A stretch of 64,000 nt of DNA from an uncultured Gammaproteobacteria bacterium (GTDB lineage Bacteria; Pseudomonadota; Gammaproteobacteria; PS1; Pseudothioglobaceae): NCBI GenBank assembly GCA_913020715.1, contig CAJVZH010000001.1, forward strand, positions 124,001 through 188,000, written 5' to 3'. The translations under genes and the position numbers were made by a program. Under the pieces are notes generated by a model. That model was not told the origin of the DNA. It ran no database searches and saw only the letters and a list, made by a program, of their open reading frames with translations. Below, one piece after another: positions 9,177 to 50,379 of the stretch. How positions within the stretch are numbered: the stretch's first letter is position 1; each line of letters starts with the position of its first letter.

Positions 9177-10826
9177 TTAGGCTTCTTTCTTCTCTCCATA
9201 GCGCTTGTTGATAAACATTTGCTGGGCGATAGAAAGTAGGTTGTTGGTTACCCAGTAAAGCACCAAGCCTGCCGGGAAGAACAAGAAGAACACAGTAAAT
9301 ACTATCGGCAGCATCATCATAATTTTTGCTTGCATCGGGTCCGCTGGTGGCGGATTCAGACGCTGCTGGTACCACATTGATGCGCCCATAATTAGCGGCA
9401 TGATGAAGTACGGGTCTTTTGCTGAGAGATCTGGCAAGTAGAAGAATGACATGTGTCTTAATTCAACCATTTCTTGCAATACCCAGTACATCGAGATGAA
9501 GACTGGGATCTGCACAAGGATTGGTAAACAACCTGCTGCTGGGTTGACCTTTTCTTTCTTGTAAAGCTCCATGGTCTTTTTGCCAATTTTTTGTTTGTCG
9601 TCACCATAAGTCTCTTTAATCTTGGCCAAACGTGGCGCCAGTTTTCTCATGCCAGCCATCGAGCGGTAAGATTTTTCGGAGAGCTTGTAGAAGGCCAACT
9701 TAATCGTTAGGGTGACCGCAATAATAGCGAAACCCCAGCTAGCAATAAAGCTATAAATCCAATGAAGGTACGTTGATAATGGCTTGGCAAAAATGTAAAG
9801 GAAGCTGTAGTCAACAGTTCTGTCCAGGCCTTCGGCTAAATTTTCTAGTCGAATGTGCTCCTTAGGGCCAATATAGAGCTCACTGCTTGCCAATACCGCT
9901 TGCGCTCCTGGCGCAATGAAGACGCGCGGATTGATGGTTGTCAAGATGAATTTTCCTTGCTCGGTTTTAGCAGTGTAGGTGCTGGAAACGTTGGCATCCG
10001 GTATCCATGCAGCAAAGAAGTAGTGCTGAATCATGGCAGCCCAGCCGCCCGTAGAGGTGGTTTCTGGCTGTTCATCAAACTCGTCAAAGTCAAACTTTTC
10101 AAAGACGCCATCATCTTCGGCATTTTTAATATAAATAGCGCCACCAGCAAAGTTTTGCATCATTAGGCTTGAGCCGCTTTCGACGGCACTGCGTGATAGG
10201 CGAGTATAAGTGCCAGCCTCTTGCTGAGAGTCGCTGTTGTTGGTAACAACGTAGTCTAGCCCGATTGTGTAGCTATCCGGCTTAAAGTGATAGTTTTTGG
10301 TGATAGTAACGCCATTTTCACCCTGCCAAGTTAGAGGGACAATGAGTTCGCTATTGCTTCCTAAGAAGTAGTTTTGTTTCGCTGAGCTGAATTCTGCGTG
10401 TTCGTCCGGTAAATGCTCGGTTGGGTACAGGCCGCTTTGTGCGTGGAAGGTGTTGCCATCAAGGTTACTTAGTAGTTGGAATTTTGCATCTGAGTTGAAC
10501 TCGTTATCATAATCGTTCAGATAGGCGCTCTGAATAGTGCCGCCTCTGTGTGAAATTTCAACCGTTAAAAGGTCTGTAGTAATCGTTGTATAAGCGCTCT
10601 GACTTGTCGCTGCAGTGGTACTGGTCGGCACATCTGATGCAGGGGCTGAGCTAAGCGCAGTACTAGGGATGTCGCTTGATTCGCTAGATGTGTCAAGCGC
10701 AGTAATACTGGTTTGGGTGACAGTATTGCCATTGGCGTCTGTTGTCTGCTTGATCTCCCACTGATCCCATAACAGAAACACAGTTAATCCGATAGCGATA
10801 ACAAGAAATAATTTTTGATTGTCCAT
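9177..10826 (-). CDS. yidC: Membrane protein insertase YidC
   Basis: 549 aa, MDNQKLFLVIAIGLTVFLLWDQW N-terminus and 60KD IMP C-terminus. Confidence 0.98.
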   Translation of the reverse strand: MDNQKLFLVIAIGLTVFLLWDQWEIKQTTDANGNTVTQTSITALDTSSESSDIPSTALSSAPASDVPTSTTAATSQSAYTTITTDLLTVEISHRGGTIQSAYLNDYDNEFNSDAKFQLLSNLDGNTFHAQSGLYPTEHLPDEHAEFSSAKQNYFLGSNSELIVPLTWQGENGVTITKNYHFKPDSYTIGLDYVVTNNSDSQQEAGTYTRLSRSAVESGSSLMMQNFAGGAIYIKNAEDDGVFEKFDFDEFDEQPETTSTGGWAAMIQHYFFAAWIPDANVSSTYTAKTEQGKFILTTINPRVFIAPGAQAVLASSELYIGPKEHIRLENLAEGLDRTVDYSFLYIFAKPLSTYLHWIYSFIASWGFAIIAVTLTIKLAFYKLSEKSYRSMAGMRKLAPRLAKIKETYGDDKQKIGKKTMELYKKEKVNPAAGCLPILVQIPVFISMYWVLQEMVELRHMSFFYLPDLSAKDPYFIMPLIMGASMWYQQRLNPPPADPMQAKIMMMLPIVFTVFFLFFPAGLVLYWVTNNLLSIAQQMFINKRYGEKKEA

Positions 10827-10844
10827 AATAATTCTGGGTTTTAA

Positions 10845-11069
10845 TTAATGAGAGAGTTTTTTTGGCACCGGGTCAAATGTGGCTTCGGACCAAGGATGGC
10901 ATTTGCTAATGCGTTTTACCCCTAAGCCGATGCCCCTTATTGCGCCGTGCTCCTGAATGGCTTCTGAAGTGTATTCAGAGCAACTCGGGATGTGGCGACA
11001 ATTATTGCCCAGTAATGGGCTAATCAGCCACTGGTAAAGCTTAATTGGGATGAGGAGTAGTGCGCGCAT
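10845..11069 (-). CDS. yidD: Membrane protein insertion efficiency factor YidD
   Basis: [31 protein letters not shown] motif; start from internal Met. Confidence 0.93.
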
Positions 11070-11073
11070 ACGT

Positions 11074-11415
11074 CTATGCCTCAGAAGCCTTTCTGAACAA
11101 GTTCGATAAATCAGCCACCAAGCTTTTATTGTCAACTTGATGAGATTTTTTGGCCATGACGACCACGTCAAAATTGCTCAACTGTGTTTGCTGCAGTCTA
11201 AATGTTTCTCGCGCTAAGCGTTTACGAAGGTTGCGATCCACAGCCTTTTTATACACTTTTTTTGAGATTGCTAATCCGAGTCTTGGTGTTGACTCATTCG
11301 AGGAGACGGCAACAAGTTGCCAAAATTTCCCTTGGGTACGTTTGCCCTTCTGGAAAATGTGTGCGTAGTCACTAGCTTTAGTTATGCGCACACCTCGAGT
11401 GAGCGAGCAAATCAT
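11074..11415 (-). CDS. rnpA: Ribonuclease P protein component
   Basis: [13 protein letters not shown] RNase P signature; rpmH upstream. Confidence 0.95.
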
Positions 11416-11419
11416 TTGA

Positions 11420-11554
11420 TTATGCTGCTAGGCGCTTACGACCTTTTTTTCTGCGTGCATTGATGACAGCGCGACCAGAGCGTGTTTTCATTCTGGCTCT
11501 GAAGCCATGAGTACGTTTACGTTTTAATACGCTAGGTTGGAAAGTTCTTTTCAT
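11420..11554 (-). CDS. rpmH: 50S ribosomal protein L34
   Basis: Manual translation: [44 protein letters not shown] (44 aa); not in the supplied ORF list. Confidence 0.97.
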
Positions 11555-11663
11555 AATGAATATCTGTCAGCAAAATCTTGCAATTTTACCATAGTTGTTT
11601 CAGGGATACATCTTTGTTAAGCTTAGCTTTCACTGTCATAATAGAAGAAAAAAGTTTAATCTA

Positions 11664-28891: not shown

Positions 28892-30427
28892 ATGGCCAGA
28901 GAAAGACGAAGACGCAGAGGCGGCGTAGAAGAAGTAAAAGAGGTGGTGAAAGCGCCAGCCTACATTAAACGAAAAATTCCAGTGCACGACCCATTAAGTG
29001 ATGTCGATTTGCGCATTATTGAGAACAACGCCGATACTATCCTTGAAGAGATCGGCATGGTTTTTGGCGAAGATTTAGAATGCGCCGATATCATGGTTGC
29101 TGCAGGCGGTGTACGTGATGCAAAAGACCCACATCGTGTACGCTTTCCGCGCGGCATGTGCCGTGAAATCATTCAGGCCAGTGCACCGAAGCAGTTTACT
29201 CAGCACGCTCGAAATCCTGAGCGAAGTGTTGAAATTGGCGGCGACAATATCGTTCTTTCGCCTGCCTACGGCCCTCCATTCATCCGCAATTTGGACGAAG
29301 GTCGGCGTTATGCTAATATCCAAGATTTTCGTAATTTTGTCAAACTAGCGTACCTGTCCGATAACCTCCATCATTCGGGAGGCACCATTTGCGAGCCTGT
29401 AGACTTACCGGTCAACAAACGCCATTTAGACATGGTGTATAGCCATATTAAATACTCTGACAAGCCATTTATGGGCTCGGTCACTTTGGGTGAAAGGGCG
29501 CAGGACTCGGTTAATATGGCCAAAATTGTTTTTGGTGAAGAGTTTATGAAGGATAACTGTGTGTTATTGAGTCTTTGTAATACGGTCTCCCCTCTGTCTA
29601 CGGATCCGGCAATTACCGGCTCTGTGAAAGTCTATGCTCGAGCAAATCAAGGCATGATTATTACTACCTTTATTGTTGGTGGCGCAATGGCGCCAGTATC
29701 AGTGGTGGGGGTGGCGGCGCAAAGTTTGGCAGAAGTGCTGGCAATGATGGCTTTAACACAACTGATAAAACCGGGTTGTCCGGTTGTTTACGGTACATTT
29801 GTGACATCGATGTCGATGAAATCAGGCGCCCCAACTTTTGGCACTGCTGAGGCTGCGCAAGCGATGTGCATCAGTGGAGCGTTGGCTAGAAGACTGGGCG
29901 TGCCGTTTAGAAGTGGTGGCGGCTTTACCTCGTCTAAAGTTCCAGACGCGCAGGCTGGCTATGAGGCGGCCAATACCTTGCACGCAACACTGGACGCCGG
30001 CGTTAACATTTCATTGCACGTTGCGGGCTGGCTAGAAGGTGGCTTGGCAATGGGGTATGAGAAGTTTGTTATGGATGCTGATCAGGCGGGCGTACTCGCC
30101 ACTGCTGCACGTGGTATTGATATGAGTGAAAATGGTCAAGCGATGGATGCCATTCGCGAAGTTGGCCCACAGTCACACTTCTTGGCTTGCAAACACACTG
30201 AGAAAAATTATAGAGAGGCTTTTTATATGGCCGATCTCAGTGACTCTCAGAGTTTTGAACAGTGGAAGGAAAATGGCTCACAAGACATGGAAATGGCCGC
30301 AAATATAAAGTATAAGAAAATGTTGGCAGATTACGAGTTGCCGCCGCTTGATCCAGAAATTGACAAGCAATTGCTAGATTACATGAAAAAGGTTAAAGAC
30401 AGTTACCCTGACTCCAATATTGCTTAA
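28892..30427 (+). CDS. MttB superfamily methyltransferase, non-pyrrolysine (paralog 2)
   Basis: 511 aa; IVLSPAYGPPF, GTICEPVDLPVNKRHLDMVYSHIKYSDKPFMGSVT; no in-frame amber. Confidence 0.88.
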   Translation: MARERRRRRGGVEEVKEVVKAPAYIKRKIPVHDPLSDVDLRIIENNADTILEEIGMVFGEDLECADIMVAAGGVRDAKDPHRVRFPRGMCREIIQASAPKQFTQHARNPERSVEIGGDNIVLSPAYGPPFIRNLDEGRRYANIQDFRNFVKLAYLSDNLHHSGGTICEPVDLPVNKRHLDMVYSHIKYSDKPFMGSVTLGERAQDSVNMAKIVFGEEFMKDNCVLLSLCNTVSPLSTDPAITGSVKVYARANQGMIITTFIVGGAMAPVSVVGVAAQSLAEVLAMMALTQLIKPGCPVVYGTFVTSMSMKSGAPTFGTAEAAQAMCISGALARRLGVPFRSGGGFTSSKVPDAQAGYEAANTLHATLDAGVNISLHVAGWLEGGLAMGYEKFVMDADQAGVLATAARGIDMSENGQAMDAIREVGPQSHFLACKHTEKNYREAFYMADLSDSQSFEQWKENGSQDMEMAANIKYKKMLADYELPPLDPEIDKQLLDYMKKVKDSYPDSNIA

Positions 30428-41463: not shown

Positions 41464-43005
41464 TTAGTACTCTTGATTGAGTGCATCCATGGCTGGAATG
41501 GTTGCCTCTCGACGGCCAATATAGTCTAACAACTCATCGTTTATTGCTTCATCAAGTTTAGGTTCTTGGTAATCATTGAGCGTTTTTCTGGCGTATTCAA
41601 GCCCCCTTTGGATGGTGTCTTTACTGCCATCAGCCTCCCATTGCTCAATGGAATTATTGTCAAATAATTTAGGCATAAAGAAAGCCCTCTCAAAATTCGC
41701 CATGGTATGTTCATGGCCAAGGTAATGACCCGCTGGGCCTACGTCTCGAACAGCTTCCATCGCCTCATCAAAGTCATCCCAACGAATGCCTTCAGCCATC
41801 CGATAGCCCATTTCGCATTGTTCAGAGTCGACGACAAATTTTGCCATAGAGCAGTGCATGCCTGCCTCATTCCAGCCAGCCGAGTGCCAGATATAGTTTG
41901 CTCCAGCCATCAATACTGACATAAGTGTCGTGGCACTTTCGTAGCCTGATTGAGCGTCGAACAATTTTGAGCCGCCTAGGGTGTTGGATGTGCGCCAAGG
42001 TATCTTGTAATAACGAGCCATCTGCCCAATCATAAAGTTCATCAACGAGATTTCTGGTGTGCCCGCCATTGGCGAGCCAGATTGCATAGATACTGTTGCC
42101 AGATAATGCCCGTAAATCGCCGGCGCACCCTTACGAATAACCTGGGTGTAGGCCAAGGCCGAAAGCGCTTCTGCATTAAGTTGGGCAACGGTTGGCGCCA
42201 CACTTGCCGGTGTGTTTGCACCGCCAAGTACAAACGGTGAACAGAGTACAGGTTGGTTATGTGCTGAAAATACACGTAATGCAGAGAGCATTGTTTCATC
42301 CCAAACTAACGGCGAGTTGCCGTTTATGTTGCCGGTGACCACTGGATGAGATTCTAAATACTCTTTGCCGTAAAGAATTTTGCACATATCCATCACGTCT
42401 TCGGCATTTTTTCCACTACTTGTCATTCCCATAAAGGTCTTGTCAGAGTGCTTCATGGATGAGTAAGTGATATGTAAGTGACGGTGGGAGATTGGCAAGT
42501 CCATTGGCTCGACAATATGGTGAGCCGATGAATGCAGTGCTGGCATCATGTGCGCAAGTTTATGAAAGTCATTTAAATCTTTGATTGTGGGCCAGCGGCG
42601 CTTGTTTTCAAGGTCGCAGACGAACGGTGCACCAGTCATTGGTACAAAAATTGAATGTTTGCCGCCAATTTCAACCGTATTTACAGGGTTGCGGGCGTGC
42701 ATGGTAAATGTTTCGGGGATTGTTGAGATCAACTCCTTGATTAGGTTGCGATCTAGATAGACACGCTCGCCTTTGACTGTTGCGCCCACTTTTTTCCAGT
42801 GTTCAAGTGCGATAGCGTCGTGAAATTCAACACCCACCTCTTCAAGAATTGACAGTGAAGCGTTGTCAATCTGGCGAATCTGCCCTTCACTCATTGGCTC
42901 GGTAAGGGGGATGCCACGCTTTAGAGTGGGCAGCATTTCAATTTTGACTTCAAGGCGATTCGACCGTCTGGCTTCACGGCCACGGCGCGCTGATTTACTG
43001 GTCAT
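41464..43005 (-). CDS. MttB superfamily methyltransferase, non-pyrrolysine (paralog 3)
   Basis: 513 aa; HHIVEPMDLPISHRHLHITYSSMKHSDKTFMG; more divergent than paralogs 1 and 2; no in-frame amber. Confidence 0.85.
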   Translation of the reverse strand: MTSKSARRGREARRSNRLEVKIEMLPTLKRGIPLTEPMSEGQIRQIDNASLSILEEVGVEFHDAIALEHWKKVGATVKGERVYLDRNLIKELISTIPETFTMHARNPVNTVEIGGKHSIFVPMTGAPFVCDLENKRRWPTIKDLNDFHKLAHMMPALHSSAHHIVEPMDLPISHRHLHITYSSMKHSDKTFMGMTSSGKNAEDVMDMCKILYGKEYLESHPVVTGNINGNSPLVWDETMLSALRVFSAHNQPVLCSPFVLGGANTPASVAPTVAQLNAEALSALAYTQVIRKGAPAIYGHYLATVSMQSGSPMAGTPEISLMNFMIGQMARYYKIPWRTSNTLGGSKLFDAQSGYESATTLMSVLMAGANYIWHSAGWNEAGMHCSMAKFVVDSEQCEMGYRMAEGIRWDDFDEAMEAVRDVGPAGHYLGHEHTMANFERAFFMPKLFDNNSIEQWEADGSKDTIQRGLEYARKTLNDYQEPKLDEAINDELLDYIGRREATIPAMDALNQEY

Positions 43006-43204: not shown

Positions 43205-44653
43205 ATGTCAAATTTATCAAATAATTACATCGCCGGCGACTGGGTTGAAGGCGTTAGTTCAATCGCAAATATTAACCCTTCTGATACCAATGATGTTATC
43301 GGTCAATTTGCTCAAGCAAGTTCGACGCAATTAGAAGATGCACTGAATTCTGCACAAATCGCACAAAGACAATGGGCGGCTACGGGGCTTGAGCAGCGCC
43401 AAGCTGTATTGATGAAAATTGGCGAAGAAATGATGGCTCGCAGCGCTGAACTTGGTGAGCTACTCTCAAGAGAAGAAGGCAAGCCAGTAGCAGAAGGCAA
43501 AGGTGAGGTCTACCGCGCCGGTCAATTCTTTACTTATTACGCGGCTGAAGTTTTACGCCAAAGTGGCGATACAGCGGATTCTGTGCGCCCTAACATTGAG
43601 GTGGATGTGCGCCGTGAGCCAATGGGTACAGTGGCGATTATTTCACCTTGGAATTTTCCAACAGCAACAGCGAGCTGGAAAATTGCACCAGCGCTAGCAT
43701 TCGGTAACGCGGTTATTTGGAAACCAGCCAATTTAACACCGGCCAGTGCAGTTGCCCTAGCTGAGATCATTTCAAGACAAGATATCCCTAAAGGACTGTT
43801 TAACCTAGTGATGGGCTCTGGTGGCTCAATTGGTCAGGCATTGGTTGAAAGTCCTAAAGTGCACGCAATCAGCTTTACCGGATCCTACGACGTCGGTCGT
43901 CAAATTGCCGGTGCAGCAGCGCAAAATTTAACTAAATTTCAATTAGAACTTGGCTCAAAAAATCCACTGGTGGTGATGGATGACGCCGATATCGATGTTG
44001 CTGTTGCTGCGGCAACAGGTGGCGCTTTTGGCTCTACTGGGCAAAAATGCACGGCATCATCGCGTTTGGTGGTTCATCAGTCTATTCATGACGAGTTTGT
44101 CGAGAGAATGACAGCCTCTACTTCAGCTCTTAAAGTGGGTCACGCACTGGAAGACGGTACGCAAATTGGCCCTGCAGCAAGTGCAGAGCAATTAGCCTCT
44201 AACCTAGATTACATGCAACTCGCACGTGAAGAGGGTTGTGAAGTGGTTTGTGGTGGTGATGCACTTGAGCTTGCAACACCGGGTCATTACATGCAGCCTG
44301 CCTTATTGATTGGTGGTGACAATGCTATGCGATTAAATCGTGAAGAGTTGTTTGCGCCAATGGCTTGCGTCATTAAAGTTGCTGATTACGACGAGGCATT
44401 GTCGGTGGCTAACGACACCGATTTTGGTTTGGTTTCTGGCATTATTACTCAGTCATTATCAAAAGCAAGCCATTTCCGTAGAAACGCAGAAAGCGGCTGT
44501 GTAATGGTTAACTTGCCAACAGCAGGTACAGATTACCACGTACCGTTTGGCGGCAGAAAGAACTCAAGCTTTGGTCCAAGAGAGCAGGGTCAATACGCGA
44601 AAGAGCTTTACACTCAAGTGAAAACATCTTACATTTCATCAGGTAATCCATAA
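43205..44653 (+). CDS. Aldehyde dehydrogenase, ketoglutarate-semialdehyde-dehydrogenase-like
   Basis: FQLELGSKNPLVVMDDADID; GQKCTASSRLVV; FGGRKNSSFGPREQG. Confidence 0.85.
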   Translation: MSNLSNNYIAGDWVEGVSSIANINPSDTNDVIGQFAQASSTQLEDALNSAQIAQRQWAATGLEQRQAVLMKIGEEMMARSAELGELLSREEGKPVAEGKGEVYRAGQFFTYYAAEVLRQSGDTADSVRPNIEVDVRREPMGTVAIISPWNFPTATASWKIAPALAFGNAVIWKPANLTPASAVALAEIISRQDIPKGLFNLVMGSGGSIGQALVESPKVHAISFTGSYDVGRQIAGAAAQNLTKFQLELGSKNPLVVMDDADIDVAVAAATGGAFGSTGQKCTASSRLVVHQSIHDEFVERMTASTSALKVGHALEDGTQIGPAASAEQLASNLDYMQLAREEGCEVVCGGDALELATPGHYMQPALLIGGDNAMRLNREELFAPMACVIKVADYDEALSVANDTDFGLVSGIITQSLSKASHFRRNAESGCVMVNLPTAGTDYHVPFGGRKNSSFGPREQGQYAKELYTQVKTSYISSGNP

Positions 44654-45645
44654 TGGCACACCCCTCTCTTTATGTTGATGCACTCCAATACAATAATTGG
44701 AGTGAGGAAGTCTTCAAACAAATTAACGCTGGCGGCCTTAGTGCTATTCACGTCACTATTTGTTATCACGAAGATTTTCAAGAGATGGTGCAAAACGTCA
44801 TCGTTTGGAATCGTCGATTTGAAGATTACGCTGATTTAATTTTCTTAGGAAAAACAGCGGATGATGTTCGTAGAGCAAAAGCCGAAGGCCGTACTGCTAT
44901 TTTCTTCGGCTATCAAAACTGCTCTCCAATTGAGGACAATATTGGTCTTGTAGAAATATGCCATCAACTCGGCGCGCGCTTTATGCAGTTGACGTATAAC
45001 AACCAGAGCTTATTGGGTACGGGTTGCTATGAGGCGAACGATCCTGGCATTACTCGCATGGGTAAGCAAGTCATTAAAGAAATGAATCGAGTTGGTCTGG
45101 TGGTGGACATGAGTCATTCTGCGGAGCGTTCAACAATGGAGGCGATTGAAATTTCTGAGCGCCCTATTGCCATTACTCATGCGAATCCAGTCTTCTGGCA
45201 TGCGGCACTTAGAAATAAGTCAAATGAGGTTTTAAAAGCCCTGGGTGAGAGTGGTGGTATGCTTGGTTTTTCCATGTACCCACATCATTTAAAAGGCAAG
45301 TCAGATTGTACGTTAGAGAGTTTTTGTACGATGATTGCCGATACCGCTGAAGTTATGGGTATTGATAATATTGGCATTGGTAGTGACCTTTGTCAAAATC
45401 AACCGGATAGCGTGGTTGAGTGGATGCGCAATGGTACCTGGACTCGAGATCGCGATTTTGGTGAGGGCTCAGCAAGTGCTGCGGGCTTCCCTGCGCAACC
45501 GGATTGGTTTAAGGACAATCGCGATTTTTCAAATCTTGAGGGCGGCTTAAGATCAGTTGGCATGTCAGAAAAAGACGTGGCGGCCGTGATGGGTGAGAAT
45601 TGGCTAAGATTTTTTGAATCCTCATTTGGGCCGACCAGCACATAA
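44653..45645 (+). CDS. Membrane dipeptidase family (M19) protein
   Basis: LVVDMSHSAERSTMEAIEIS, ITHANPVFW, IGIGSDLCQN; TAATG overlap with upstream ALDH. Confidence 0.85.
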   Translation: MAHPSLYVDALQYNNWSEEVFKQINAGGLSAIHVTICYHEDFQEMVQNVIVWNRRFEDYADLIFLGKTADDVRRAKAEGRTAIFFGYQNCSPIEDNIGLVEICHQLGARFMQLTYNNQSLLGTGCYEANDPGITRMGKQVIKEMNRVGLVVDMSHSAERSTMEAIEISERPIAITHANPVFWHAALRNKSNEVLKALGESGGMLGFSMYPHHLKGKSDCTLESFCTMIADTAEVMGIDNIGIGSDLCQNQPDSVVEWMRNGTWTRDRDFGEGSASAAGFPAQPDWFKDNRDFSNLEGGLRSVGMSEKDVAAVMGENWLRFFESSFGPTST

Positions 45646-45648
45646 ACA

Positions 45649-47346
45649 ATGCCGTCTAGTGCCACACTTGATGAAGCGATGATGCGGCGACCCGAACAGG
45701 TGATGCGTCTTGATAGAATGGGCTCATCATTCCCGACACGATTGAGTTTTATGCGCGGACTAATTCGTCGCATGTCAAAAGAGCAGTGGAAGTTTGAGAA
45801 GTTGCGTCAAGACATTGACGAAAACGGCTATGGTGTCAGCGTTTATGCGGCGCATACACCAAAACGTACATATTCCTTAGTTGCTTTCACTCAGGACATT
45901 CCTGCCGATATGCGTACCGATCGAGTAATCGCTGAAGTTTGGGATGCAACATTTAATTTATTTGATGGTGTGCCGACGCAGGACGATATCGATTATTTGG
46001 CAAAAAATACACCCAAACAAGAGGGCGGGCGCTTTCGACCAAGCGAGCTTAGCTTGGCACGGGCCAATAAAAGCTTAAGACTGTTTGAGCACATAGTTTC
46101 GTCGCTTTCCGAAGGCAAGCAGCCGGACGTTGATTTAGTGGCTTCGGTTGGCTATATCATGCGCACAACTGCGGTCTACGGTAGCGGTAAATTTGGTTGC
46201 GCTGATCGCGCCAAGATTGCCGAGCGTGAAGAGTGCAAGGTGTCGTTCCACATGGAACTGTTGGCGGTTTATTTAATTCGCTGGTTTACCATTGACGTGG
46301 TAGAAACCATTGCAAAACAACGAGGTGGTGATAGAGCGGTTAGCCTAGAGCCCCATATTCGTCAATTTATTGGTGTTGGCAACTCTACCGGTCTTGGTAT
46401 GGCGCCATTTTTACTAAAACACCCTGTATTAATACATAACTGGGTTAGTGCAAAAGAAACCGCACTCGCTAGAGTTCGCAGTCTGGAGACGCCAATTAAA
46501 GGCTCTCTCGAGGCGTTTACACACAGCGTTCGACAAGTGGCACAACATTTGAAAGAGTGGCGTGTTGCAGACGAGATTCAAAGTGCTCGCATTGAGCAGC
46601 TGGAGGGCGAGGTTGCTGAGCTATCCAGTTGGTGTGATGATGAGAGTAATCTTGTCAAGCCATACCCTTGGAATGGTATTTATCAGTTTGCTGAGAATAG
46701 TTTTTCTCTAGAATGTCAAGAGATGGTGGTCTCACTTGTTATTGAGCCGCATGGTGCCTTGGTGGATGATTTGGCCGATACCATGTTTTCAACAACTGCA
46801 CCACAATTCGAAGCCAGTATGTCGCTTACAAGATTGAAGACGATTGTTAAAGATTATTACGCATGGGCCACCAGCATTGATTTTTCGCTCGGTGAGTCAC
46901 AGCATCATTTTTGGTATTATTCGGAAGATAAGCTGGAGCCGCGTTTTGGCTCAAAAGGTGTGGATGATGGAGTAGATCAGGAAATGCCCTTGGCTATTAG
47001 CAGAGATGCAAATGATCTGAATGAGCAGTTAAAAACAGCATCGGATGACATTACAGTGGGCGAGTTTGCGTTGCAATACCCACAATTTAGACACATTATT
47101 CGCCGTATCCAAAACACCGCACTGAGGCCTTATGCGGAAGTTCAAGATAATTTATTGGGCGAAACGATGAGGCCGCTTGACTTGCTGCGTTTTAAATTGG
47201 CATTTTTTGGCGCCTCTAAATTTGACCCAAAATCCGATTTATGGACAAGAATCTCCATGTATCAAGGCGCACCAATGCCTGACCAACTCTCAGATTCTAG
47301 TCACGATGATTGGACTTTTCCAATTCGACCACAAAGCGCACTTTAA
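45649..47346 (+). CDS. Uncharacterised 565-aa protein
   Basis: Long ORF, 3-nt gap from the dipeptidase gene and TAATG overlap with the next gene; family/function not recognised. Confidence 0.8.
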   Translation: MPSSATLDEAMMRRPEQVMRLDRMGSSFPTRLSFMRGLIRRMSKEQWKFEKLRQDIDENGYGVSVYAAHTPKRTYSLVAFTQDIPADMRTDRVIAEVWDATFNLFDGVPTQDDIDYLAKNTPKQEGGRFRPSELSLARANKSLRLFEHIVSSLSEGKQPDVDLVASVGYIMRTTAVYGSGKFGCADRAKIAEREECKVSFHMELLAVYLIRWFTIDVVETIAKQRGGDRAVSLEPHIRQFIGVGNSTGLGMAPFLLKHPVLIHNWVSAKETALARVRSLETPIKGSLEAFTHSVRQVAQHLKEWRVADEIQSARIEQLEGEVAELSSWCDDESNLVKPYPWNGIYQFAENSFSLECQEMVVSLVIEPHGALVDDLADTMFSTTAPQFEASMSLTRLKTIVKDYYAWATSIDFSLGESQHHFWYYSEDKLEPRFGSKGVDDGVDQEMPLAISRDANDLNEQLKTASDDITVGEFALQYPQFRHIIRRIQNTALRPYAEVQDNLLGETMRPLDLLRFKLAFFGASKFDPKSDLWTRISMYQGAPMPDQLSDSSHDDWTFPIRPQSAL

Positions 47347-48056
47347 TGCCAGATCAACTAACAATTTCACTAAACGAAATTCTATTTATCTTCACTAGGG
47401 CGGGTTTTGGCGTCAATGCGCCAATCGGTATTTCTGAAGATTTTGCGCGCAGCAATATGTGGCTAGCGGAGAATGGCTTTGACCCCTCTTTGTGTAGTGT
47501 TTCTGCACTTGATAGTCTTGATGAGGGCAAGAGCTCTTTGGTTATAGAACAGACGGAGGATGGTTTTAGTGGGTCGAACTCTCAGTATTTGTCTGCCTTG
47601 CAAGCCTCTGTTAGCGTGCTTGATAGAGTGAAAGGCAAACAAAGTGTCGAGTTGACCATTGCCAATGTTGATTCACCGCTATTGGTGGTTGCTGCTCTGG
47701 GGGCCAATCAAGTTGAGGGCTGGAAGGTGTGCTGGTGCGATGAAGTGGGCGCAAATTTTCAAGTGAATTTTATGGCCAATGGTCAATGGCACATCATCAG
47801 TGATGGTTTAGGGGTAATTGAACTTAGTAAGGGTGCAACAATGCAAGTGAGCTTGCTAGGCGATACAGATGTCGCTCTAGAAGGCAATATACAAAGGCTT
47901 GACAGCAAGGTCGAAAAAACAAAAATTTTACAAACAGGCATTGCAGTGCACGAGCATTGGAATGCGATTTATGCCTATTTTTCTCGCTGCTTGGTGAAGT
48001 CAACGGCGGAGTCCCGCGCTTCAGGTGCAGGCGCGGGTTTGGTAGATACGGATTAA
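47346..48056 (+). CDS. Uncharacterised protein, probably DUF3726 family
   Basis: SLNEILFIFTRAGFGVNAPIGISEDFARSNMWLAENGFD; stop/start overlap with the upstream 565-aa ORF. Confidence 0.65.
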   Translation: MPDQLTISLNEILFIFTRAGFGVNAPIGISEDFARSNMWLAENGFDPSLCSVSALDSLDEGKSSLVIEQTEDGFSGSNSQYLSALQASVSVLDRVKGKQSVELTIANVDSPLLVVAALGANQVEGWKVCWCDEVGANFQVNFMANGQWHIISDGLGVIELSKGATMQVSLLGDTDVALEGNIQRLDSKVEKTKILQTGIAVHEHWNAIYAYFSRCLVKSTAESRASGAGAGLVDTD

Positions 48057-48073
48057 ACATTAAGGAGTTACAC

Positions 48074-49075
48074 ATGAGTACAACGTTTTTAAATAGAGAA
48101 GAAATTGAGACAGTGGCAATTAAAGCGCTGATGAATTCAGGCGCCAGTGAAACTGCTGCAAGCGCTCTTGCAAAAGGCGTGGCCGCCGCTGAAATGGATG
48201 GCATTGCCAGCCATGGTTTGGTTTATGTGCCAATTTATTGCGAACATTTGACCTGCGGTAAGGTGAACCCAAACGCTAAGGTTGTGGTTGATCATGCAGC
48301 CTCTAGTGCAATTGTGGTTGACGCAGACAGTGGTTTTGCTCATCCAGCGATTGACGCAGGCTTTGATCTGTTGATTGAAAGCGCTAAGAAAAATGGTTGT
48401 GCTGCGATGTCGATAAGAAATTCTTATAATTGTGGTGTGCTTGGTTTTCATTCAGAGCGTATTGCACAAGCAGGCATGACCGGCCTAGGGTTTACCAATG
48501 CACCGGCATCGATAATGCCAGTTGGTGGCAACAAGTCAATTATTGGCACCAATCCTTTTTCTGTCGCCGTGCCGGATGGTAAGGGCGGTGTTGCTTTTGT
48601 TCTTGACCAGTCTGCCAGTGTGGTTGCTAAGAGTGAAATTAAGATGCATGCACAGGCTGGAAAATCGATCCCTGAGGGTTGGGCGTACGATGCAGATGGC
48701 AATCCAACTACCGATGCCGATGCCGCTATGAAGGGCTCTATGGCACCAGTTGGCGGCTACAAAGGCTTTGGCGCAGGCTTGCTGGTTGAGATTTTTGCGG
48801 CAGTTATGTCTGGTGCTACGCTTTCGCAGGATGCCAGCCCTTTTGCAGGCACAGCAGGCGGACCACCTAGAACAGGCCAATTCTTTTTCGCCGCTTCACC
48901 AGACGTTTTTTCACCGGATGTATTTGGCGATCGAATTCAGACACTAACCAGCTCAATTGTCGCCCAAGAAGGCGCACACTTATCAGGCTCTGAGCGTGTT
49001 GTAGCAAGAACGGCACACGAAGCAAATGGTGTTGAGGTAAGCGTTGCTTTGTTGGAGAAAATCCAAGCGATTTAA
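48074..49075 (+). CDS. Malate/L-lactate dehydrogenase (Ldh2) family oxidoreductase
   Basis: MDGIASHGL..., NPFSVAVP, GGYKGFGAGLLVEI motifs; delta1-pyrroline-2-carboxylate reductase-like family. Confidence 0.88.
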   Translation: MSTTFLNREEIETVAIKALMNSGASETAASALAKGVAAAEMDGIASHGLVYVPIYCEHLTCGKVNPNAKVVVDHAASSAIVVDADSGFAHPAIDAGFDLLIESAKKNGCAAMSIRNSYNCGVLGFHSERIAQAGMTGLGFTNAPASIMPVGGNKSIIGTNPFSVAVPDGKGGVAFVLDQSASVVAKSEIKMHAQAGKSIPEGWAYDADGNPTTDADAAMKGSMAPVGGYKGFGAGLLVEIFAAVMSGATLSQDASPFAGTAGGPPRTGQFFFAASPDVFSPDVFGDRIQTLTSSIVAQEGAHLSGSERVVARTAHEANGVEVSVALLEKIQAI

Positions 49076-49107: not shown

Positions 49108-50379
49108 TTAGCTTGATTGGCTGGACTCCTCTGAAAAGTCATCGCGGTGTTTGCCTATTTTTATTCGACGAGTAGTGCCCACAAGCTCTTGTTGATAGTC
49201 GCTCTCATTGATGCACTTCTTGAGGCTATCCGTCCTTAAATCAAGCGTTGAAAGACCCATTTGTCCAGCAGCCCTCATGCCGGCGTACCTCGCGTCTGCG
49301 GCGGTCTTCTTTCTAACTAGGTGCGGTTGCCAGTAGTCCAAGTCCTTGGGTTCGGCATCGCCCTCTATATTTAAGTAGTTAGCTTTTAGGGCGCCATTAA
49401 TAATTTCTGCACCTCTAGAGGTGCGGCCAATCACAACATTGGTGCCTAGGTCGTTTTCCATCATCTCTAAGGTTGGCTCACAATTCGGCCACGTGTCTCC
49501 AGAAACAATATCTGCAGCTTCACCCGAGCCGTCTGGACAAATGCGGCAGCGCCAAGGCATGTACCATTGTGAAGAATCTGTACCCCAGAAGTCCAGATAG
49601 GTTTTTGTGATCGTTTCTCCGTTTTTGAAACGAACAATGGTTGGCCCCGGGCAGCCCTCACCACGATAGCTCACGCTTTGGACGTCATCTTCGTCGGCGC
49701 CAACAGATTTGAGGAAATTATCCATCGCAAATGGCGGGAAAAAACCGCCGCAAACGGGTGTTAATAGTGCTTTAATTTGTCGGTCAATCCTTGGATCCTT
49801 TTTGCCGAGCAAGCGCACTGCTGAAATGTCACATGGCTTGGCAACAAGAGCAATATTAATGCCAGTATCGAGTGTTTTGAGTAAGTTTTCTAGTGGTGCG
49901 GTTGAGGCGTAGATGGAGCCACTGCCCTTTATAACATCGTCACTGGTTTGGCTTAATTGTGAGTGACCAAAATACGCTTTTAGGCCACCACCAGCAACCT
50001 GTAAAATACCATCAACTTGCCCGCTCTCCAGTAAGTATTGACTGATTGCGGTAAGGGCGCCCCCAGTAGCCGCTTTATGCCTGATTTTTGCATCACCCGA
50101 ATGCGCCTTCACTATTGTTTCTATCGCCCCCCATGTCGGGTCGATATTTTCTGGGTTTAAGACTTTGTCACTTGGCATACCCGATTGCACAACGCCAGGG
50201 CAAAAGCTTTGTAAATGGGTGTTTTGTCCTGAGTTTAATGCCGTGCTTTCTGAGGGCCTCAGATGACCGGAAGGTGAGAGTTGCATTTGAACTTGACTAG
50301 GAAAAACGCTAGCACAGAGGCCGCAACCGATGCACAAGCCCTCTTCGATAATTTGTTCAATACTGTTATTTGTGGGCAT
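49108..50379 (-). CDS. Coenzyme F420 hydrogenase/dehydrogenase beta-subunit (FrhB/FdhB)-family Fe-S protein
   Basis: CIGCGLC ferredoxin-like motif; KAATGGALTAISQYLLE, KPCDISAVR, YRGEGCPG, SGDTWPN. Confidence 0.82.
   Translation of the reverse strand: MPTNNSIEQIIEEGLCIGCGLCASVFPSQVQMQLSPSGHLRPSESTALNSGQNTHLQSFCPGVVQSGMPSDKVLNPENIDPTWGAIETIVKAHSGDAKIRHKAATGGALTAISQYLLESGQVDGILQVAGGGLKAYFGHSQLSQTSDDVIKGSGSIYASTAPLENLLKTLDTGINIALVAKPCDISAVRLLGKKDPRIDRQIKALLTPVCGGFFPPFAMDNFLKSVGADEDDVQSVSYRGEGCPGPTIVRFKNGETITKTYLDFWGTDSSQWYMPWRCRICPDGSGEAADIVSGDTWPNCEPTLEMMENDLGTNVVIGRTSRGAEIINGALKANYLNIEGDAEPKDLDYWQPHLVRKKTAADARYAGMRAAGQMGLSTLDLRTDSLKKCINESDYQQELVGTTRRIKIGKHRDDFSEESSQSS

Follow-up and report, generated by a model that had tools for sequence, protein, structure and literature searches.

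Here we describe a five-gene operon at positions 43,205 to 49,075 of a window of 64,000 nucleotides (the whole stretch of DNA analysed: NCBI GenBank assembly GCA_913020715.1, contig CAJVZH010000001.1, forward-strand positions 124,001 to 188,000) from an uncultured gammaproteobacterium of the Pseudothioglobaceae, whose genome is 1.55 Mb in size and whose relatives in the GTDB collection are SUP05/Candidatus Thioglobus. Our analysis suggests, with a probability of roughly 0.65, that this operon breaks down a betaine-like N-methyl compound toward N-methylglutamate. Central to it are a protein of 565 amino acids (aa) that matches no known family, and its partner, a DUF3726 protein, which we show to be a reduced version of the Ldh2 dehydrogenase fold. 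We give an even chance to the more specific view that homarine (N-methylpicolinate) is the main substrate and that the 565-aa and DUF3726 proteins constitute the first enzyme. The features concerned are the following:

43205..44653, plus strand: aldehyde dehydrogenase (ALDH), first gene of the operon; Pfam Aldedh, 520.8 bits
44653..45645, plus strand: M19-like amidohydrolase ("membrane dipeptidase"); Pfam Peptidase_M19, 241.7 bits, cut-off 26
44683..44691, plus strand: codons of L11-Q12-Y13 of the M19-like protein, which by position would correspond to the slot of the canonical metal-binding HxD
45649..47346, plus strand: 565-aa protein with several blocks of near-invariant polar residues; no Pfam/NCBIfam family, no solved fold
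46372..46410, plus strand: most conserved block of the 565-aa protein in the family alignment, GVGNSTGLGMAPF, residues 242-254
47346..48056, plus strand: DUF3726 protein, the reduced Ldh2-fold partner of the 565-aa protein
47976..48053, plus strand: conserved C-terminal tail of DUF3726, the final 26 residues, which end in ESRASGAGAGLVDTD; modelled with low confidence in the isolated protein
48074..49075, plus strand: predicted Ldh2-family NAD(P)H-dependent dehydrogenase; Pfam Ldh_2, 308.5 bits; SHG motif
41464..43005, minus strand: MttB-family corrinoid methyltransferase, divergent neighbour of the ALDH gene, outside the conserved core

The genes of the operon are tightly packed. The ALDH and M19-like genes, and likewise the 565-aa and DUF3726 genes, share a TAATG junction with an overlap of 1 nt (at 44653 and 47346, respectively). 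The M19-like and 565-aa genes lie 3 nt apart, and the DUF3726 and Ldh2 genes 17 nt. These coordinates and junctions are exactly those given in an earlier reading of the DNA made from the letters alone (hereafter, the sequence-only reading), which took the coupling of the genes to imply a single process. The conservation of the operon bears this out, since its core is kept together both in the genus and across the wider Proteobacteria. Thus, the ALDH, M19-like and 565-aa genes occur together in 21 of 21 Thioglobaceae loci, and a DUF3726 gene was counted in 19 of them (the copy in locus L041 fell under the clustering cut-off, and locus L049 terminates within the 565-aa gene). The common gene order is LysR / ALDH - M19 - (BCCT) - 565 - DUF3726 - (RidA) - (Ldh2), in which the genes in brackets are optional; in a sister genus, the M19 and 565-aa genes flank a BCCT transporter gene and are followed by a diverged DUF3726 gene (Pfam DUF3726, E 0.005). 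The sequence-only reading had also named co-occurrence with MttB and Ldh2 genes as a check. Here the neighbourhoods gave a mixed answer: the core co-occurs strongly, but MttB, a neighbour in 17 of the 21 Thioglobaceae loci, was found in only 9 of 80 wider neighbourhoods and is a local companion outside the operon core, and Ldh2, present in three of the 21 loci (the window, L040 and L042) and in the fragmentary loci L024 and L029, is accessory in Thioglobaceae operons. Overall, the 565-aa family is encoded on at least 582 stretches in the GTDB collection, mainly from alpha- and gammaproteobacteria. It is present in 22 of 299 Pseudomonadota genomes and 71 of 150 genomes of the family Rhodobacteraceae, on 168 plasmids, and also in one haloarchaeon.

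Scans of the 565-aa protein and its profile gave no Pfam or NCBIfam match above noise, in line with its earlier description as uncharacterised; weak Pfam matches to CHASE3 and ATG16 were discarded as coiled-coil noise. Sequence searches of the PDB with the protein and its profile gave nothing meaningful either. An AlphaFold2 model built on 62 sequences has a pLDDT of 91.8 and a pTM of 0.92, and Foldseek found no match to it among viral models and none among solved structures, where the best E-value was 0.77 and the highest probability 0.10; our statement that the protein has no known fold refers to the PDB as of April 2026. No unrelated known function of the family came to light. In all, 64 columns are invariant over 62 diverse family sequences, in compact blocks rich in R, D, E, K, N and W that include GxGNxTGLGMAPF, TxAxYxxxKxG and WxxSxxKxEPR, and these blocks appear to resemble an enzyme active site. 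A Walker-A reading of the segment AVYGSGKF was rejected, as it has no Ser/Thr and no suitable helix.

The DUF3726 gene lies directly downstream of the 565-aa gene in 96 of 109 loci, which are not independent of each other, mostly with a 4-nt overlap, and the two are fused in a further three (an 814-aa protein of Mesorhizobium, WP_199201047.1, and loci L084 and L099); the proposed coupling of the two proteins is therefore that of near-obligate partners. The window protein scores 19.7 bits against the Pfam model of DUF3726 (PF12525), under the gathering cut-off of 22.1. Its orthologues at this place in the operon reach 91-103 bits, so that the probable assignment made before is most likely right. 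With its structure model (pLDDT 92.4), Foldseek returned 13 matches at E <= 0.001, all of which belong to the Ldh2 family (probability 1.00, TM-score 0.49-0.61). A comparison of the DUF3726 profile with Ldh2 by hhalign gave a weak match over the N-terminal helices (P 3.9e-4). Firmer sequence evidence comes from a plasmid of the haloarchaeon Natrinema (locus L133), on which a homologue of the 565-aa protein (32%) and a BCCT gene adjoin the gene of a 317-aa partner protein (10668-11621). This partner matches Pfam Ldh_2 with an E-value of 4.8e-9 (36.2 bits, cut-off 38.8) as well as the DUF3726 profile (P 1.2e-4), and is an intermediate between Ldh2 and DUF3726. Since all top Foldseek matches are Ldh2 enzymes and the haloarchaeal partner matches Ldh_2, we conclude that DUF3726 is a reduced Ldh2-fold protein, a relationship that is new here. 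Our literature search on DUF3726 found no paper among 5.39 million.

The catalytic SHG and NAD-site (NSYNCG-type) motifs are present in the Ldh2 alignment and absent from that of DUF3726. What is conserved in DUF3726 are the N-terminal helices and the C-terminal tail, AP.TE.SR..GAGAG..D.D, the core being variable; the mean top frequency is 0.68 in the last 16 residues versus 0.35 overall. DUF3726 is also the fast-evolving member of the pair. It is plausible that its tail docks into the 565-aa protein. We tentatively suggest that the two proteins form a new class of two-subunit enzyme, in which a catalytic subunit of unseen fold would dearomatise or open an N-methylpyridinium ring, while a degenerate Ldh2 subunit would supply its C-terminal tail to complete the catalytic one.

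In the M19-like protein, the two His and the Asp of the second metal site (H155, H176 and D245) are invariant. Nearly all of 52 relatives have L11/Y13 in place of the N-terminal HxD, a correspondence that is positional because the Pfam match begins at model position 31; the HxD is likewise missing from the class B relatives described below. The position of the bridging Glu, which aligns to the Glu of GliJ (5lx0), is occupied by Q88 in all aligned relatives. With three canonical metal-ligand positions lost, a canonical two-metal site, and hence peptide cleavage, is unlikely for this protein. The nearest solved structure is 2i5g, an "amidohydrolase". This is a Pseudomonas aeruginosa protein, which fits the statement in the sequence-only reading that M19 homologues occur in the Pseudomonas dimethylglycine locus.

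The catalytic Cys (GQKCTASS) and Glu (LELGSKN) of the ALDH are present. It scores under all NCBIfam equivalog cut-offs, the nearest being 2-oxoglutarate-semialdehyde dehydrogenase (477.6 bits versus 770); betaine-aldehyde dehydrogenase reaches 400.9 versus 668.6 bits. In the Ldh2 protein, the SHG motif (S46-H47-G48) is invariant, and its top NCBIfam match is L-sulfolactate dehydrogenase, at 179 bits versus a cut-off of 500. Of the PDB sequences, it matches that of delta1-piperideine-2-carboxylate reductase best (1wtj, 158.5 bits; the sulfolactate enzyme 2x06 scores 137.3 bits). The substrate of this reductase, a six-membered N-ring with a 2-carboxylate, is shaped like a reduced picolinate.

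The link to N-methylglutamate comes from neighbouring genes. The operon of Phaeobacter inhibens and Ruegeria TM1040 comes after a set of four "sarcosine oxidase" genes with an AraC-type regulator, a set that in Shinella is divergently oriented. Judged by their sequences, these four genes encode N-methylglutamate dehydrogenase (Mgd). The operon-linked MgdA (beta subunit) of Phaeobacter, Shinella, Methylocapsa (L122) and locus L108 is 71-79% identical to MgdA linked to gmaS (R. etli, Aminobacter) or dmm (Paracoccus aminovorans), with 85% identity between Shinella and R. etli MgdA, versus 49-52% for a separate soxBDAG set (L143). Moreover, MgdA of P. inhibens is 82% identical to an R. pomeroyi gene at 1.68 Mb, the expected site of mgdABCD (SPO1585-1588). 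The linkage is also found in two further Rhodobacteraceae (G162 and G178). Among the 29 sampled Rhodobacteraceae that have both, Mgd and 565-aa genes lie within about 15 kb of each other in four, against an expectation of 0.2 (P 7e-5; 1e-3 when the two Phaeobacter-like genomes are counted once). Since the linked MgdA lineages differ, that of Shinella going with R. etli and that of Phaeobacter with Paracoccus, the linkage probably arose more than once. BCCT genes lie within or beside the operon in a sister genus, roseobacters and Pseudomonas MPC6, and the operons of relatives adjoin BCCT or ProX-type betaine transporter genes. The loss of M19 motifs, these transporters and the repeated adjacency of Mgd argue against the cleavage of peptides and for a role in the metabolism of methylated amines or betaines, much as the sequence-only reading had favoured.

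In the window genome, mgdABCD is located on another contig, in a cluster (L158; G000 C12:6000-25000) with a ProXVW betaine transporter, an ALDH, a Rieske oxygenase, a LysR regulator and a DAO-type FAD enzyme that is largely conserved in genome G006 (L160). On a Pseudosulfitobacter plasmid (L141, 3851-13047), mgd genes adjoin genes for a hutG-like N-formylglutamate deformylase and a formimidoylglutamate deiminase.

Ruegeria pomeroyi DSS-3, which we recognised as genome G460 by its 100% match to the megaplasmid, carries the operon as LysR / ALDH - M19 - 565 - DUF3726 - Ldh2 - BCCT. This bacterium draws down homarine from the medium within hours (PMC12817926), and a 2026 paper, citing a study in Nature Microbiology, reported a part for Mgd in the catabolism of homarine (PMC13390433). 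The BCCT neighbour of the operon is SPO3186, which imports dimethylsulfoniopropionate (PMC10130141). Judging from the gene order, the 565-aa gene should be SPO3189. A literature search on homABCDER and SPO3188-3192 returned nothing informative. Our proposal of homarine thus draws on the adjacency of Mgd, the role of this enzyme in homarine catabolism, the R. pomeroyi operon together with the homarine drawdown, the BCCT genes, and the match of Ldh2 to 1wtj. It may be that the operon is the homarine pathway published in 2026. Ferrer-Gonzalez and colleagues are said to have described in that year, in Nat Microbiol, a homarine operon homABCDER of five structural genes and a regulator. Its gene count would equal that of LysR plus ALDH, M19, 565, DUF3726 and Ldh2, which we regard as a lead rather than a test.

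On this basis, a route can be proposed. Betaine transporters of the BCCT or ProX type would import an N-methylated zwitterion, most likely homarine. The 565-aa and DUF3726 proteins would act as one enzyme that attacks the ring first, with the tail of DUF3726 making the active site of the 565-aa protein complete. Then the M19-like protein may open or hydrolyse a C-N bond and the ALDH may oxidise the resulting semialdehyde. Where present, Ldh2 might act as the reductase of a cyclic imine or ene 2-carboxylate; its relative delta1-piperideine-2-carboxylate reductase carries out such a reaction on an identically shaped ring. The end product would be N-methylglutamate, which MgdABCD would convert to glutamate and a folate-bound C1 unit. 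The route as proposed leaves the loss of one carbon without an assigned enzyme.

Several observations weigh against this proposal. Across genomes, the 565-aa family and Mgd are modestly associated (odds ratio 2.7, p 0.007, uncorrected for phylogeny and with groups set by identity), and the two are physically linked in a minority of loci; other loci have DMGDH-like genes or MttB. The window genome carries GmaS and an MgsC homologue, and Mgd also serves methylamine use; the presence of Mgd in this genome was for that reason dropped as unique evidence. In R. pomeroyi, the Ldh2 gene SPO3187 is annotated as the sulfolactate dehydrogenase gene comC (PMC4334477). Finally, the class B relatives (28-30% identity; Variovorax, Neorhizobium, Alloyangia, S. 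meliloti) have the order 565 - partner - M19 and no ALDH, with a DUF3726-like gene whose product has a variant tail (APDS..SRRHAG). Their loci (L132, L135, L137 and L138) have PotABCD-type ABC or tricarboxylate transporters and often RidA, and they lie near gabT and acetolactate synthase genes. Class B proteins probably act on another substrate, and the 565-aa family may thus serve several.

The evidence also has to be weighed against other functions. The operon could degrade another N-methylated compound such as proline betaine or N-methylproline, ring oxidation giving N-methylglutamate semialdehyde for the ALDH. The ALDH is indeed of a semialdehyde-oxidising kind, the linkage to Mgd and BCCT/ProX fits equally well, and the DMGDH-like, Rieske and MttB genes that adjoin several operons are of the betaine-demethylating type; however, none of the genes for proline betaine recurs constantly beside the operon, and the need for a fold-less 565-aa enzyme and an Ldh2-derived partner is left unexplained, which makes such a substrate rather unlikely. 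The breakdown of glycine betaine or choline, with a betaine-aldehyde-type ALDH and the other proteins processing methyl groups together with MttB, sarcosine oxidase and glycine cleavage, might be suggested by the presence of genes for these three functions nearby in the window genome, and by the M19 homologue in the dimethylglycine locus of P. aeruginosa. Nevertheless, the ALDH falls far under the betaine-aldehyde cut-off, and the main text of a proteomics study of glycine betaine in R. pomeroyi, which found MtgBCD, does not mention the operon genes (PMC12478193), and we hold this to be decidedly unlikely.

That the operon handles a sulfonate, with Ldh2 as a sulfolactate dehydrogenase, is very improbable. 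Although the comC annotation and the best NCBIfam match of Ldh2 point in this direction, that match is far short of its cut-off, 1wtj outscores 2x06, Ldh2 is missing from most Thioglobaceae operons, and neither a sulfonate lyase nor a sulfite exporter was seen among the recurrent neighbours. A different kind of alternative is that the 565-aa protein is no enzyme, but a scaffold or regulator that holds DUF3726 and other enzymes. It has a near-obligate partner and no recognisable cofactor or metal motif, as such a role would suggest, but its charged and polar invariant columns look like an active site and it is DUF3726, not the 565-aa protein, that evolves fast, so that we judge a scaffold unlikely.

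The 565-aa family spans hundreds of bacterial species and about half of the sampled Rhodobacteraceae, and still neither Pfam nor NCBIfam has a model of it, nor has its fold been solved. If it acts on homarine or a similar methylated zwitterion, this would name the unknown first enzyme of a step in the marine nitrogen cycle. In addition, a domain of unknown function is shown to be a repurposed dehydrogenase, and the widespread annotation as "membrane dipeptidase" is probably wrong. Should the homarine paper cover the operon genes, the pathway has been described before, and the new results here are the descent of DUF3726 from Ldh2, the family of 565-aa proteins without a known fold, their fusions with DUF3726 and the degenerate site of the M19-like protein.

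Some further genes lie near the 565-aa gene or in the window. In Methylocapsa (L122, 1374-5451) a luciferase-type monooxygenase with a flavin reductase and a SABATH-type methyltransferase are encoded close to the operon, and CoxLMS-type molybdenum-hydroxylase gene sets lie near the 565-aa gene in L069 (2731-6484) and L095 (3711-7424). These methyltransferase, hydroxylase and monooxygenase neighbours occur in 1-3 loci each and were given no weight as evidence. The window also contains a second MttB-family (non-pyrrolysine) corrinoid methyltransferase gene at 28892-30427, different from that at 41464-43005. At 49108-50379 it encodes an FrhB/FdhB-like iron-sulfur protein (coenzyme F420 hydrogenase beta family), unusual for a marine gammaproteobacterium, next to a mandelate-racemase-type enzyme.

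Among known systems, the homarine catabolic pathway shares with the operon its occurrence in marine proteobacteria and, as proposed here, an N-methylated zwitterion as substrate. It uses Mgd, whose genes adjoin the operon in several genomes; a difference is that most Thioglobaceae operons have no adjacent Ldh2. MgdABCD with TmaR can be compared with the Mgd genes that adjoin the operon together with an AraC/GlxA-type regulator in Phaeobacter, Ruegeria TM1040 and Shinella, which is not the arrangement in the window. A further likeness is to the degradation of trigonelline (N-methylnicotinate) by tgnABCDE, which involves an N-methylpyridinium carboxylate, a semialdehyde dehydrogenase, amide hydrolysis and a LysR regulator. 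The tgnABCDE system is not known to include a 565-aa or DUF3726 protein, and the operon in turn lacks the two-component flavin monooxygenase of that system, one being only a neighbour in L122. With the renal or membrane dipeptidases of family M19, the window M19-like protein has in common the Pfam family and H155, H176 and D245, whereas the HxD and bridging Glu positions are changed. The Ldh2 family of type 2 malate-lactate dehydrogenases (1wtj, YiaK, AllD) is represented twice: the gene at 48074-49075 encodes a full member, and DUF3726 has the same fold, but is about 100 residues shorter, lacks SHG and has gained a new conserved C-terminal tail.

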